From NCBI RefSeq assembly GCF_034120055.1, contig NZ_CP139368.1:1240001-1304000 (forward strand): a stretch of DNA of 64,000 bases, written 5' to 3'. Below the pieces are notes generated by a model. That model was not told the DNA's origin. It ran no database searches and worked only from the letters and a program-made list of their open reading frames with translations. This DNA is from Microbacterium rhizosphaerae. Lineage in GTDB: Bacteria > Actinomycetota > Actinomycetes > Actinomycetales > Microbacteriaceae. A program made the translations under genes and the position numbers. Positions within the stretch are counted from its first letter, which is position 1, and every line of letters starts with the position of its first letter. Positions 2-63,311 of this stretch are shown in pieces.

Positions 2-3000
2 GAGAAGGACAAGCTGACCGACTGCGACCACTCGACGAGCCCGGCCTTCTGCGTGCTGAGCGTCCCGAACGCGGGCCACCCGCAGGGCAGCATGTACATG
101 TGGGACGGCTCGACGTGGAAGTTCGTCGGCGACCAGAACGGCGACAAGCTGCCCACCGGCGGCCCGAAGGACAAGGACTACTACCAGCTCACGGCCGACG
201 ACGGCCTCGGTCACGCGGCGGGTCTCTACCGCTTCTCGTCGAGCGGGCACGCGTGGAACGCGGTCGCCGGTCCGTTCGCGCACGGCATCGACCTGCCCGC
301 GTCGCCGACGACCGACGAGATCTTCCGGCTCGACGAGCACGAGATCCAGGCGCAGGCCGAGTCCGGCGCGGGCGACTCCACGTCCGTCGGCGTGGCCGGA
401 GCCGTGTCGATCAACATCATCCACAACATCACCGAGGCGGTCATCCCGGCGGGCGCCTCCGTCACCCTCAGCACGGCGGACCTGACGCTCAAGAGCCGCA
501 GCAACGAGCGCGACACGTCGAAGGCGACGAGCAAGGCCGAGGTCGGCGACAGCGTCGGGATCGGCGCATCCGTCGCCATGAACCTCATCCTCGGGCAGGA
601 CGGGGGAACCCTCCTCTCCGACAACCGGGTGCGCTCCGAGGTCGAGAACGGGGCCACGGTCACCGGCGGCGTGAACGTCGACATCGAGGCGAAGGGCTGG
701 CGCCAGCTCGTGACCGAGACGGAGGCGGGTACGAAGACCTCGGGCGACAACCCGGCGATCACGCCCGCGGTCGCGCTGCTGGTCGACAACCACGACAACG
801 TCACCGCGCGCCTGGGAACCGGCACCGGTCTCACGGCGACCGGGGCTGTCACGATCTCGGCCGAGCACACGAACGAGATCGAGACCTCGGGCAAGGCGGA
901 GGCCGCGAGCAAGGACGTCGCGATCGGCGCCATCGTCGCGCTGAACGTCGTCCTCGACTGGGGAACGCTCGCGGCCACCGACCGGTCGGTCTCCGGCACC
1001 TCCGTCGAGATCACGGCCACGTCCGAGATGGCCGACACCGCGAAGGCGACGGCGAGCGCGCGCGGCAGCAGTGACAGCGACAACAGCGGCGACAAGAAGT
1101 CCGACCAGCAGATCAAGGACAGCCCGAACTCCTCGGGCGGCACGAACGGCAAGACCACGCCGAAGTCCAACGACCAGACGTCGTCGGCGAACAGCAGCTC
1201 GAGCGGCAAGACCGGCCAGAGCGGCGGCGGCACGGGCATCGCGGCATCCATCGCCTGGAACTGGATCGAGACGACCAACGAGGCCCGCATCGGCTCCGGC
1301 ATCACCGTCACGGCCACCGGCGGTGACGTCAAGGTGAGCGCATCGAACATCACCGGCAACACCGCCCAGGCGATCAGCACCGCGTTCGACCTGACCTCCG
1401 GCAGCACCGAGATCGGCGCGGCGATCGGCTTCAACTACCTGAACATGACCAACCGGGCCCACATCCAGACCGGCACGACGGTGTCGGGCGCGGGCATCAC
1501 GGTCGAGGCCATCACGCCGTCCGGCAAGCACGACGACTTCATCATCTGGGCGTTCGCCGCCGCCGGCGGTAAGTCGGGCACGAGCTTCGCGGCCTCGGCC
1601 GGCATCAACGTGCTGAACCTGAACACCGAGGCGCGCGTCGGCCAGGGTGCGTCGCTCACTTCGACGCAGGGCATCACGGTCAACGCCACGACCGACATGC
1701 GCCTGCTGAACCTGGCGCTGTCCGGAGCCCTCTCGACGAGCGGCAAGGGCATCGGCGGTGCGTTCGCGGTCAACATCCTGCCGAACATCACCACGGTCGC
1801 CGCGATCTGCTCGGGCAGCGACGCCTCGACCGACCCCGACTGCAACAGCGTCACGACGGCCACGACGCTGCAGGCGGCGGGCGCGATCGGCGTGACCGCG
1901 ACCGACACCTACGCGCCCCTCGCGCCGACGACCGGCAACAGCACGATCGACAACCACCTGCCCGCGCTCTCGTCGTTCGCGCTCGGCGGTGCCGTCGGCG
2001 GCGACGGTCTCGCGGTCAGCGCGACCATCGTGGTCGACGTGCTCCTGTACGACACCGAGGCGTACATCGGCAACAGCGCGAAGGTGAACCAGACGACGAC
2101 CGGCGGCTCCGGGCAGTCGGTGAACGTCGCGGCCGAGGACGACACGAACATCGTCGACGTCTCGGGCGGTCTGGCCCTCAGCGGCGGATCGTCCTCGGTC
2201 GCGGGGTCGATCATCGTGCTCGTCATGACGAAGACCGTGAACGCCTCCATCGGCTCCAGCGCCAAGGTCAACGCGGGCGGCGGCGTCTCGGTGAGCGCGA
2301 CCTCGACCGAGCAGCTGCTCGAGATCGTCGTCGGCGGCAGCGCCTCCGACTCCAGCGCAGCGGTCGCGGGCACGTTCGCGGTCATCATCGTCAACCCGGG
2401 CGACCAGGCGACGGCGGCGTCGATCGGCAGCAGCGCGGTCGTGCACGCGAACGGTGCCGTGTCGGTCACCGCCTCCGACACGTCGGACAAGATCAGCATC
2501 ATCAGCGGCAACGTCGCCATCTCGACCTCGAGCGCCGGGGTCGGCGCATCCCTCGCCCTCCTCGTGCGCAACGGCACGGTCACGGCGACGATCGGCAACA
2601 ACGCGAGCGTGGAGGGGGATGCCGCGGCCGGCGTCTCCGTGAACGCCACGCAGGAGCTGAACCTGCTCATCACCGCGATCGCGGGCGCGGGCGGCGACTC
2701 GGCCGGCGTCGGCGGATCCGTGGTCGTCGACGTCAACACCGACGTGACGACGGCATCCATCGGCTCGTCTGCGAGCGTGAACTGCAGCGGTGTCGGCTGC
2801 ACGAACTCCAGCGTCGACAACACCCAGGCGGTGGGCGTCAAGGCGAAGGACACCACGACGATCCTCGCCCTCGCGGGCGCGCTCGCGGTGGGCGGCACGG
2901 CCGGCGTCGGCATCGGCGTCGACGTCGAGGACATCCACAAGACCACGACCGCCTCCATCGGCGACTCGGCGACGGTCCACGCCAACGGCGACGTCGTGAC

Positions 3001-43894: not shown

Positions 43895-44053
43895 TCCCGC
43901 CCGCCCGGCCCCACCGCCCCGGCCCGCCCGCCTCACCCGCCTCACCCGCCCCGCCCCACCCGCCCCACCCGCCCCACCCGCCCCACCCGCCCCACCCGCC
44001 CCGACCACCGCCCCACCCGCCCCACCCGCCCCACCCGCCCCGACCACCGCCCT
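43895..44053. repeat. 9-bp tandem array (CGCCCCACC)
   Basis: From about 43953 the unit CGCCCCACC repeats with at least nine near-perfect copies, interrupted twice by CGCCCCGACCAC; the stretch before it is a degenerate version. It lies between the glycosylase promoter and palindromic element A. On the minus strand it reads as G-G-W repeats. No gene is assigned here. Confidence 0.9.
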
Positions 44054-44060
44054 GCCGTGT

Positions 44061-44160
44061 CGTCCGGGATTCAGTCTGTTCGTTGCACAAGCGGCGGCCG
44101 GGCGGCGAACTTCCGGCCCTGCGCACGTCCGGCGGGCTCGACGAGACTGAATCCCGAACG
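44061..44160. repeat. palindromic element A, left of the first DUF559 gene
   Basis: Arms 44061-44082 and 44139-44160 are inverted copies sharing the core CGGGATTCAGTCT (13 of 13), with 19 of 22 bases matching overall; 56 bases lie between them. A related stretch, reverse-strand CAGGAGACTCTGTTTCCCTG at 44201-44220, may be a decayed half. The remaining 44221-44298 holds no recognisable feature except a GC-rich hairpin-like run. Confidence 0.85.
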
Positions 44161-44298: not shown

Positions 44299-45144
44299 GT
44301 GGTGTTCGATGTTCTGACCCGCGCCGACCTCATCCGGGACGGCTTCAGCTCCCGTGCCATCACCGCCGCGGTGAAGTCCGGCGACCTCGTGCGTGCTCGG
44401 CAGGACCGCTACCTCGCCCGCGATGCGCCGCCGCCGCTGGTTGATGCTGTCCGCGTCGGAGGTCGCCTCGGCTGTCTTTCACTGCTCGCGCTGCTGGGCG
44501 TCTTCGTCTTCGACGGTTCGACACTGCACGTGCACATGGAGCGAGGTGACAGCAGGATGCGGTCGCGCCTGAGTCGCCGCCGACGTCTGCCCGATCGCGG
44601 GAAGCGCGGGCCGATGCTGCTGCACTGGAGGCGCCTGACGGACGAGCCCGGGTTGGGCGCGGTCGGCGTCATCGATGCGCTGATCTCGGCTGTCCGCTGT
44701 CAGGAGCCGCGCCACGCCATCGCCACTTTGGACAGCGCCCTGAATCTGGGGGTGATCGATGACGTCGGATTCGCCGAGGTCTTCGCGCGCCTGCCGGCGC
44801 GTTTCCAGCTGCTGCGTGGGTTCGTCGACGCCAGGGCGCAGGCGGGGACCGAGACGCTGGTCCGGCTGATGGCGCAGAGACTCGGATGCCACGTCGTCCT
44901 CCAAGTCGTCTTCGAAGGCGTCGGTCGGGTCGACCTGGTTCTGGACGGCTGGCTTGTCGTCGAGTGTGACAGCAGAGCATTCCACGGCACGTGGGAGCAG
45001 CGGCTCAAGGACTATCGACGCGACCGCGCTCTCGCCGCGAAAGGCCTCTGCGTCCTCCGGCTGGCCGCTGAGGACATCCTCTATCGCCCGGAGTCGGTGG
45101 TCGAAAGCCTCCGCGGCCTCATCCACTCCCGCCGGCAGCTCTGA
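44299..45144 (+). CDS. AbiEi-like/DUF559 (PD-(D/E)XK-type) putative endonuclease, copy 1
   Basis: 281 residues from tandem GTGs at 44299/44302. Residues ~1-75 are an AbiEi-type winged helix (L-I-R-D-G-F-S-S-R-A-I-T-A-A-V, L-V-R-A-R-Q-D-R-Y-L); the C-terminal third is a DUF559 fold related to Vsr nucleases: helix Glu in G-T-E-T-L (~185), G-R-V-D-L-V-L-D-G-W (~211) and V-V-E-C-D-S-R-A-F-H (~223), then R-R-D-R-A-L. These supply the D-...-E-x-D/K site pattern of the superfamily. The start is weak: AACGAT precedes the second GTG by six bases, and no ribosome site is clear. It is a paralogue of the gene at 62241-63131. Bracketed by palindromic elements A and B; function unknown, possibly a mobile nuclease. 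Confidence 0.75.
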   Translation: MVFDVLTRADLIRDGFSSRAITAAVKSGDLVRARQDRYLARDAPPPLVDAVRVGGRLGCLSLLALLGVFVFDGSTLHVHMERGDSRMRSRLSRRRRLPDRGKRGPMLLHWRRLTDEPGLGAVGVIDALISAVRCQEPRHAIATLDSALNLGVIDDVGFAEVFARLPARFQLLRGFVDARAQAGTETLVRLMAQRLGCHVVLQVVFEGVGRVDLVLDGWLVVECDSRAFHGTWEQRLKDYRRDRALAAKGLCVLRLAAEDILYRPESVVESLRGLIHSRRQL

Positions 45145-45316
45145 GCCGGACCGCCGGTAGCTCTGAGCCGGGCCGCCGGTCGCCGGTAGCTCTGAGCCGT
45201 GCCGCCCGATCGCCGGTAGTTCTGAGCCGGACCGCCGGTCGCCGGTAGTTCTGAGCCGGACCGCCGGTCGCCGGTAGTTCTGAGCCGGACCGCCGGTCGC
45301 CCTGAGCCCGACCGCG
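45131..45316. repeat. 22/29-bp tandem array that copies the 3' end of the DUF559 gene
   Basis: TCTGAGCC recurs at 45140, 45162, 45191, 45221, 45250 and 45279 (CCTGAGCC at 45301), spacing 22, 29, 30, 29, 29 and 22. The full unit reads GAGCCGGACCGCCGGTCGCC then GGTAGTTCT. The first copy contains the stop codon and last codons of the nuclease gene (CGCCGGCAGCTCTGA), so the array appears to have grown out of its 3' end. Confidence 0.92.
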
Positions 45317-45347: not shown

Positions 45348-45450
45348 GGCGTTCAGGATTCAGTCTCCGCGCCTCAGGATGAACCTGATCGCCCCGGAAC
45401 TCGTGCGCCCGTGATCGCTGGCAGCGCGAGGAGACTGAATCCTGAACGCC
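45348..45450. repeat. palindromic element B, right of the first DUF559 gene
   Basis: Perfect 21-base inverted arms at 45348-45368 and 45430-45450, beginning GGCGTTCAGGATTCAGTCT, separated by 61 bases. The arm is shared with element A apart from one A/G and flanking changes (GGCGTTC(A/G)GGATTCAGTCTC). Confidence 0.92.
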
Positions 45451-62198: not shown

Positions 62199-62287
62199 GC
62201 CTGCAGAACTCCACGGAGAGGGAGCCCGAGGCGCCCGCGCTCAGCGTGCGCGCCCGAGAGGGACGGGATCCGTGGAGTCCTGCAGAC
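62199..62287. repeat. palindromic element C, 3' side of the second DUF559 gene
   Basis: Inverted arms 62201-62217 (CTGCAGAACTCCACGGA) and 62269-62285 match at 16 of 17 bases, with a GC hairpin between them. The DUF559 stop codon (62241-62243) lies in the loop and the right arm encodes part of its C-terminus. The arm is identical to one arm of element D. Confidence 0.88.
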
Positions 62288-63131
62288 GGCCTGGGCCCCA
62301 CGAGAGGATCTCCTTCATCGTGCTCACGATCTCCTCGCACCGGTAGTAGACGTCCTCGGCAAGCGGCCGGATCGTCGCGTATCCGAGTGCTGCTGCCGCC
62401 AGGTCTCGCCTGCGGTCGCGGACCTGCGCCGTCCATCCCTCATGGAATGCCCGGCTGTCGCATTCGACGATGAGCCAGCCGTCCACAATGAGGTCGACGC
62501 GGCCCACCCCGGGCAACTCGACCTGTACGTCGACGCGGCACCCGAGCTCCACCAGGATCAGTCGCATGAGCGTCTCGGCGCCCGATTCGCTGCGGGCATC
62601 CAGGAGGGCCCGACGTGGACGGAATCGTCGCGGGAGGCGCCGTAGGATCTCCGCGACATCCGCCTCGTCGATGAGGCCGTGGTGCCACGCGCTGTCGAGC
62701 GTGGCGATCGCGTCACGCGGCGACTGGCATCTGCACGCCTGAACGAGCGCTCCGAGGAGATCTGCGGTGAGAGCGTCGTCGCCGGCCTCCACGAACCGCC
62801 AATGGGCGATGACCTCGGGCGGTCGCACGGGCAGGCGGGTCGTACCCGGCGTGAACTGGAAATGCGACCCCGGCCTCTCACGGACGAACACGCCGAGCGC
62901 CGCCAGGAGCGAGACGCAGTCGAGACGGCCGCCGTAGCGCGCCGCCTCGACGAGGGACGGGTGCGTGTCCGGCGTGACATAGCGACCTTTCCGCACGCGC
63001 CAGAGGGCTCCCACGGCGACCTGAGCAGCCAGGCGATGACGGGTGAGCCCCATCTCCCTCACACGGTGCGGGGTGAGGAACGTCGCAGACAGGACGGCCT
63101 TCGCCGTCGCGCGGATGTCAGTGCTCGACAT
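62241..63131 (-). CDS. AbiEi-like/DUF559 (PD-(D/E)XK-type) putative endonuclease, copy 2
   Basis: 296 residues from ATG 63131. The N-terminus has the AbiEi-like winged helix (F-L-T-P-H-R-V-R-E-M-G-L-T-R-H-R-L; W-R-V-R-K-G-R-Y-V). The C-terminal nuclease region has G-A-E-T-L-M-R-L, G-V-G-R-V-D-L-I-V-D-G-W-L-I-V-E-C-D-S-R-A-F-H (~209-231) and R-R-D-L, closely matching copy 1 over its whole length (R-Y-G-G-R-L-D-C-V-S-L-L-A-A-L-G-V-F-V; S-P-R-D-A-I-A-T-L-D-S-A). A frame extends upstream through element D to 63275, but alignment with copy 1 supports the start near 63131. Its last ~15 residues are encoded within element C. Function unknown. Confidence 0.75.
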   Translation of the reverse strand: MSSTDIRATAKAVLSATFLTPHRVREMGLTRHRLAAQVAVGALWRVRKGRYVTPDTHPSLVEAARYGGRLDCVSLLAALGVFVRERPGSHFQFTPGTTRLPVRPPEVIAHWRFVEAGDDALTADLLGALVQACRCQSPRDAIATLDSAWHHGLIDEADVAEILRRLPRRFRPRRALLDARSESGAETLMRLILVELGCRVDVQVELPGVGRVDLIVDGWLIVECDSRAFHEGWTAQVRDRRRDLAAAALGYATIRPLAEDVYYRCEEIVSTMKEILSWGPGRLQDSTDPVPLGRAR

Positions 63132-63221
63132 CCCCCAGCGAAGCGCGGTCGGCGGCGTCGTCGTCCGCCGTGGGTCGCAGGTGTGGACTGCTGCGGCTCC
63201 CGCCTCTCTTCCGGAGGAGAC

Positions 63222-63311
63222 GCCTGCACAACTCCACGGATCAGACGTGACACACCGATCCCCGGAGGGAAACACGCCCCACCGCGCGCAGATCCGTGGA
63301 GTTCTGCAGGC
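63222..63311. repeat. palindromic element D, 5' side of the second DUF559 gene
   Basis: Inverted arms 63224-63242 and 63291-63309 (CTGCAGAACTCCACGGATC, 18 of 19 matching) with 48 bases between. The core CTGCAGAACTCCACGGA is shared with element C, over 1 kb away on the other side of the gene. Confidence 0.9.

Follow-up and report, generated by a model that had tools for sequence, protein, structure and literature searches.

The gene at 62241-63131 of the window, by which is meant the whole stretch of 64,000 nucleotides from Microbacterium rhizosphaerae that was analysed, lies between two spaced palindromes, or dyads, whose arms match. This arrangement of a gene between matching dyads is real and general. 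At the level of sequence, arms and spacing are common to both dyads of a locus, and the same dyads occur singly elsewhere; their spacers are little or not alike and of fixed length, the arms diverge with the AbiEi-like half of the encoded protein, and one junction switches repeatedly on a tree between having and lacking a dyad. The locus is read here, with a probability of about 0.55, as a two-part system like REPIN/RAYT in which an unrelated nuclease gene is paired with a cognate spaced dyad, and for this system we infer protein binding, cutting of DNA and movement of the dyads. The occurrence of dyads away from the gene, their conserved spacing and the presence of the arrangement in other families of the order go beyond the first-pass annotation of this DNA.

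The protein consists of an AbiEi-like part joined to a Vsr/EDxHD-type nuclease and is not a RAYT. Its N-terminal part has the AbiEi antitoxin fold (similarity at E 7e-5), and the C-terminal part has the EDxHD/Vsr-type catalytic fold with its acidic and histidine residues, E186, D213, E223, D225, H230, D239 and D243 of the nuclease being invariant in 67 aligned sequences. The gene had been annotated as a DUF559 nuclease paralogous to one at another locus of the window. The paralogy stands, the two proteins being 46% identical, but the label is less secure: the Pfam match to DUF559 is below cut-off (E 0.048), and MTES_1575 is a better match (E 2.7e-6), likewise below cut-off. No match to PF01797, the HUH Y1 transposase, was found among the matches of the protein, and a RAYT search of the genome with PF01797 at E<=0.001 found none, with 5 of 14 control genomes positive. 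A PDB sequence search gave no match up to E 1, and neither NCBIfam nor the phage families searched gave any. The adjoining genes encode an adenosine deaminase and a TauE-type exporter, and no AbiEii toxin gene lies beside the locus. Homologues are currently named DUF559, 'very-short-patch-repair endonuclease' or orphan 'AbiEi antitoxin', and the C-termini of several read like a translated arm, for example LQNST.

Table 1. Nuclease genes and dyads at the two loci of the window.
Feature	Position	Strand	Remarks
Nuclease gene, 296 aa	62241..63131	-	AbiEi-like part, residues 18-178; Vsr/EDxHD-type nuclease, residues 183-281
Dyad C, 3' side of gene, overlaps CDS end	62199..62288		Arms 62201-62217 / 62269-62285
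Dyad D, 5' side of gene	63222..63311		Arms 63222-63242 / 63291-63311
Paralogous nuclease gene, first locus	44311..45144	+	Start codon provisional
Dyad A, 5' of first-locus gene	44061..44160		
Dyad B, 3' of first-locus gene	45348..45450		

Dyads C and D are of equal length (about 90 bp), with near-identical arms and unrelated spacers. All four arms are variants of CTGCAGAACTCCACGGATC; the left arm of C, CTGCAGAACTCCACGGA, pairs with its partner with one mismatch, and the arms of D are complementary at 20 of 21 positions. The arms are thus shared, as had been annotated, but not identical. Dyad C covers the final 48 bp of the gene, stop codon included. The tetranucleotide GTAG is absent from the C and D arms by eye, the other consensus arms having been looked over only. 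Dyads A and B of the first locus are also real, with arms CGTTC-GGATTCAGTCTC. The description of the C and D arms as unlike those of the first locus holds in so far as arms are locus-specific, but a core (AACTC, AATTC, ATTCAG or ACTCAG) is shared by 50 of 101 consensus arms across the genus. Short tandem repeats, with units such as GCCGGTAGTTCTGAGCCGGACC and GCCCCACCC, are found between the first-locus gene and dyad B (45145-45300) and before dyad A (43930-44050).

The match between brackets was scored for each locus as T, the best match of an arm of the upstream dyad to an arm of the downstream dyad. The locus at 62241-63131 has T=20.0. None of 400 random intervals scored above 11.0, and none of 171 neighbouring ORFs above 12.0, which bears out the annotated bracketing by C and D. 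In the genome (4,057,055 bases, one contig) five homologues were found at E<=0.001, and all five have matching, locus-specific brackets, with T values of 20.0, 18.5, 36.5, 15.0 and 20.5, the fourth with a weak downstream dyad. The proposal that the pattern recurs with locus-specific arms was therefore confirmed, and no paralogue without flanking palindromes was met in this genome. At T>=13, a threshold chosen after inspection of the data (others were also computed), matching brackets were found in 60 of 94 loci of a first Microbacterium set (34 fetched automatically and 60 hand-picked across the E-value range among the matches listed), in 42 of 66 loci of a second set whose named records are Microbacterium, Microbacteriaceae or one Actinomycetes MAG (80 named loci less 13 duplicates and L247, which was not evaluable), and in 15 of 19 loci of a third (20 stretches less L342, of which the sequence was too short). 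Pooled, this gives 117 of 179 genus loci, among which six further near-duplicate pairs remain, or 111-112 of 173 when counted as clusters of 90% identical genes. No length-matched random interval (of 400) and no neighbouring gene (of 171) reached the same threshold, and swapped flanks did so in 5 of 400 cases, which answers the concern of the first-pass annotation that matching arms might be equally common around unrelated genes. In 464 kb, mostly stretches centred on nuclease genes, 23 dyads scored at least 16, against none in a single shuffle. Across the order, the protein was found at E<=1e-15 in 82 of 149 sampled genomes, and 12 of 24 loci outside the genus reached T>=13, in families coded f1, f3, f6, f9, f10 and f12; none of the five loci of f14 and f15 did so, and seven other non-genus loci failed too. 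The loci below this threshold, 62 of 179 in the genus and 12 of 24 in the order, count against the explanation preferred here.

Spacing is conserved as well. A common arm core was available for 101 loci. In 91 of them the core-to-core distance, which depends on the core picked by the script, is the same within 1 bp in the upstream and the downstream dyad, compared to a permutation mean of 11.6 and maximum of 23; between loci it ranges from 35 to 114 bp. The other ten are discordant: the two distances differ by roughly a helical turn (11 or 12 bp) in four and by 19 bp in another four, and the last two show differences of 2 and 33 bp. Length is constant within an arm type, for instance 79-81 bp in ten copies from genome G025 and 71-72 bp in the C/D type, but 83-84 bp in two copies of the latter. 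Mean spacer identity in the C/D type, three genomes pooled, is 0.33 compared to 0.33 for shuffled spacers; the corresponding values are 0.39 and 0.34 in G025, 0.44 and 0.35 in G037, and 0.48 and 0.37 for one G011 pair. The dyads of G025 and G031 between prpD and prpB have arms identical at 22 of 22 positions and spacers identical at 35 of 60, with a shuffled mean of 52%. As the arms of single dyads are conserved and the spacer is saturated, selection or conversion is needed, and near-identical arms without shared spacers imply that copying of whole dyads is old or rare and that the arms are kept by one of these processes. The unshared spacers are the strongest fact contrary to the REPIN-like proposal. 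Transposon copying with a shared interior is disfavoured by spacer identities near those of shuffled sequence; the interior common to MITE copies is lacking here, the G037 and G011 values being somewhat above shuffled, with the exception of one tandem pair (604862/605071). This pair, two A/B-type dyads at 604862-605158 of the same genome as the window (L291), has nearly identical spacers and is a local duplication; the flanking genes are presumably exonuclease III-like and pntB-like.

Arms also diverge with the protein. Arms are common to 31 of the 34 locus pairs with 70% protein identity or more. The share falls to 31 of 126 pairs at 60-70%, to 41 of 1283 at 50-60% and to 11 of 3507 below 50%, and arm similarity is correlated with the identity of the proteins (Mantel rho 0.304, p 0.001). 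Partial Mantel tests gave 0.248 (p 0.001) for arms against the AbiEi-like half corrected for the nuclease half, and no correlation in the converse case (0.015, p 0.35). Arms thus appear to follow the N-terminal, AbiEi-like half. This fits a protein that recognises its own arm at each locus, and the earlier suggestion that each nuclease has co-evolved with its own recognition sequence gains support. This is not proof, because kinship of loci gives such a correlation under plain descent. An adenosine deaminase gene (add) adjoins 50 of 161 loci, of which 35 reach T>=13; where computed, the nuclease proteins there are 49-68% identical to the 62241-63131 copy, and the arms agree within a locus and differ between species. 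The shared neighbour indicates that this gene lineage was inherited in place.

Dyads are also dispersed as inverted doublets, as REPINs are in genomes with a RAYT. In the genome of the window, single dyads were found for each of the three arm types searched, of five loci, and one lies 25 bp before purD. Exact-core copies number 2 to 10 per type in most genomes with a match, and one in two genomes. A dyad pattern searched in 59 genomes was found in five and its reversed control in three (2, 6 and 1 matches), one 80-bp match in G053 being treated as chance; in another such search of 59 genomes the reversed control had no match.

The junction between prpD and prpB, discovered via a dyad in G025, was compared in 49 genomes (50 of 57 prpD matches were examined, of which G053 was excluded because of a gap in the assembly). 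Sorted by eye, 24 have an overlapping stop/start TGATG, 14 a dyad and 11 another insert. The dyad sits in an insert of 112-160 bp that splits the overlapping stop/start, and by eye many filled sites retain a left-hand TGATG and a right-hand CTGATG, as do non-dyad inserts. Dyad state needs 12 changes on the tree, about as many as with shuffled labels (mean 12.4), and the tree cannot separate gain from loss; a single origin of these dyads is rejected (p-AU 4e-6). Among the 17 dyads detected in 20 junctions of at least 85 bp, which include G007, G008, G033 and G036 from the other inserts, seven have their best arm match, out of 94, in the nuclease locus of the same genome (permutation p 0.0002). 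For the other ten no sampled own locus is ranked first, which counts against the preferred explanation; in G031, G015, G056 and G058 the dyad has no cognate among the sampled loci, of which only part were fetched. In L133, L144, L148 and L160 the junction holds a different palindromic repeat, GTCGTTGAGCGAG...GAAACGC, in tandem in L160.

Upstream of purD, a site discovered via a dyad in G000, a dyad scoring at least 11, not always of nuclease type, was found in 13 of 30 genomes (30 of 57 matches were examined). For 4 of these 13 the top-ranked of the 94 is again the nuclease locus of the same genome (permutation p 0.0002), eight of the 13 being from genomes with a sampled nuclease locus. Another hairpin, GTCCA-GACACGCGGA, is found in L298, L300, L304 and L307 where others have nuclease-type dyads. 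That no fresh dyad insertion was caught in the act in the genomes compared, and that each of the two sites was discovered via a dyad in a single genome, also count against the preferred explanation, as do the matches of the reversed control pattern. Dyads are mostly intergenic, and that of L129 lies between two convergent genes according to a crude ORF caller. In G031, however, a nuclease-type dyad (1501-1579 of L055) is in frame within an ABC-F ATPase gene (1067-2779, minus strand). The insert at this loop varies among homologues in length and apparent arm type, the arms beyond G031 being read from protein sequences only. Of 120 homologues listed, 33 are without a bounding motif; among the 87 with both, 6 have 18-19 residues at the loop, five of these six being near-copies, and 81 have 32-71, and 36 inserts are outside any named class.

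Under the REPIN-like reading, a protein dimer would sit on the dyad, one AbiEi-like half per arm, at a set distance and phase, and the Vsr/EDxHD nuclease would nick or cut at the bound dyad. Repair of the break via short arm homology could spread dyads to new sites, and the same repair could keep the arms of old dyads in step with the nuclease. The gene is often a long-term resident, as beside add in 50 of 161 loci, and the dyads are the dispersed part. A bolder form of this reading can be offered only tentatively: the dyads would be a nuclease-run, independently evolved class of genomic palindromes, in which the protein, through very short conversion tracts at the dyads belonging to it, rewrites the arms alone. 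Arms would then change genome-wide in concert with the protein, and spacers would drift freely at fixed length. If true, the system would be either selfish or domesticated, would work without a transposase and would be common in an order of Actinobacteria.

The main rival, a regulator with co-evolving operators, is rather unlikely. The AbiEi-like part would be a DNA-binding regulator, the dyads operators for its own gene and for purD and prpB, and the nuclease accessory. Paired sites on one DNA face would look much like the dyads, with arms that are conserved, spacers that vary freely at a fixed length and a few steps of about 12 bp; dyads recur at the same places before purD and between prpD and prpB, and AbiEi antitoxins autoregulate through inverted repeats. 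However, upstream and downstream dyads are equally regular, and dyads are found inside the ABC-F reading frame, between convergent genes and in the insert that splits a stop/start. The nuclease residues are invariant, and specificity shifts between species, which is unusual for a regulator of many sites.

It is improbable that the gene itself is the mobile unit, with the dyads as its ends or duplicated target. Although the dyad-gene-dyad unit is compact and single dyads could remain after gene loss, no kinship is visible by eye between the spacers on either side of the gene in the loci inspected, and gene-hopping as the main mode is disfavoured by the 50 of 161 loci inherited in place beside the adenosine deaminase gene. 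A defence or toxin-antitoxin locus that its dyads protect or regulate would agree with the AbiEi similarity and the nuclease fold, but is quite improbable given its neighbours; it also fails to explain single prpD-prpB dyads that match a nuclease locus. It is barely credible that the dyads are ordinary terminators, or inverted repeats that arose by chance in GC-rich DNA. The dyads do fold as hairpins and are mostly intergenic, C and D as single-stranded DNA folding better than every one of 200 shuffles (z -4.3 and -5.7), but a terminator search found no terminator-like site at the dyads, Rfam gave no family for them at gathering score, and both the lack of T>=13 arms around control genes and the absence of dyads scoring at least 16 from the single shuffle speak against this explanation.

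RAYT/REPIN is the known system nearest in anatomy to the REPIN-like arrangement proposed here, and membership fails on the protein and on the GTAG tag. In passages on the REPtron, a RAYT gene is flanked by cognate palindromes (PMC3733652), as the nuclease gene is in the genus loci counted above. RAYT gene and palindrome type correspond (PMC8266576), and the REP doublets of SBW25 are described as pairs in inverted orientation whose spacer is less conserved, with 71 bp between the first residues of the invariant 16-mers (PMC3116915). The present system differs in having an AbiEi-like part and a Vsr/EDxHD nuclease instead of an HUH Y1 transposase, and in dyads of low copy number whose spacers have a fixed length and little similarity; it belongs to an order of Actinobacteria. 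The REP-palindrome system of bacteria seems to have been invented here a second time, without relation to the first. RAYT is, to our knowledge, the only kind of protein dedicated to REP/REPIN systems; another protein, unrelated to it and with palindromes that diverge along with it, would mean that such partnerships evolved more than once in bacterial genomes.

Other systems share single features with this one. The EDxHD homing endonuclease I-Bth0305I dimerises on a target of nearly 60 bp (PMC3943268), a scale similar to that of the dyads, and the catalytic fold is common to it, Vsr and the present protein. The latter differs in its predicted AbiEi-like DNA-binding part, and its target-like dyads flank the gene in intact form and occur elsewhere in the genome, unlike one empty homing site. 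CGTC-tagged REPs from five other phyla are, in the passages concerned, palindromes apparently without a dedicated transposase, and rickettsial palindromic elements are named in the same source (PMC3733652). No result here ties the nuclease family to the CGTC-tagged REPs. The AbiEi antitoxin of type IV toxin-antitoxin systems is alike over residues 18-178; here it is fused to a nuclease, and no AbiEii gene adjoins. Rickettsial palindromic elements resemble the dyads in being palindromes inserted in frame in protein genes, and differ in that we know of no gene dedicated to them. Literature searches, not all aimed at this link and with subscription papers mostly outside their reach, found no palindromes tied to the nuclease family, which is no proof of absence in print. 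The reading proposed here would assign a role to a family now filed under the three names given above, and over a hundred natural protein-arm pairs would be a source for the DNA-recognition code of the AbiEi-like part.

Among the dyads of G025 (L052, L116-L122) most copies look asymmetric, with GCTGAT or GCCGAT at one inner end and GCCAAT or GCCATT at the other, which suggests a polarity of the dyad. At loci of distant homologues (L074, L098, L101, L111, L090 and L093) some arms contain repeated motifs, such as TGCACGAC...TGCACGA in L090 and L093; the first four of these are the loci with the 19-bp difference between upstream and downstream dyads.
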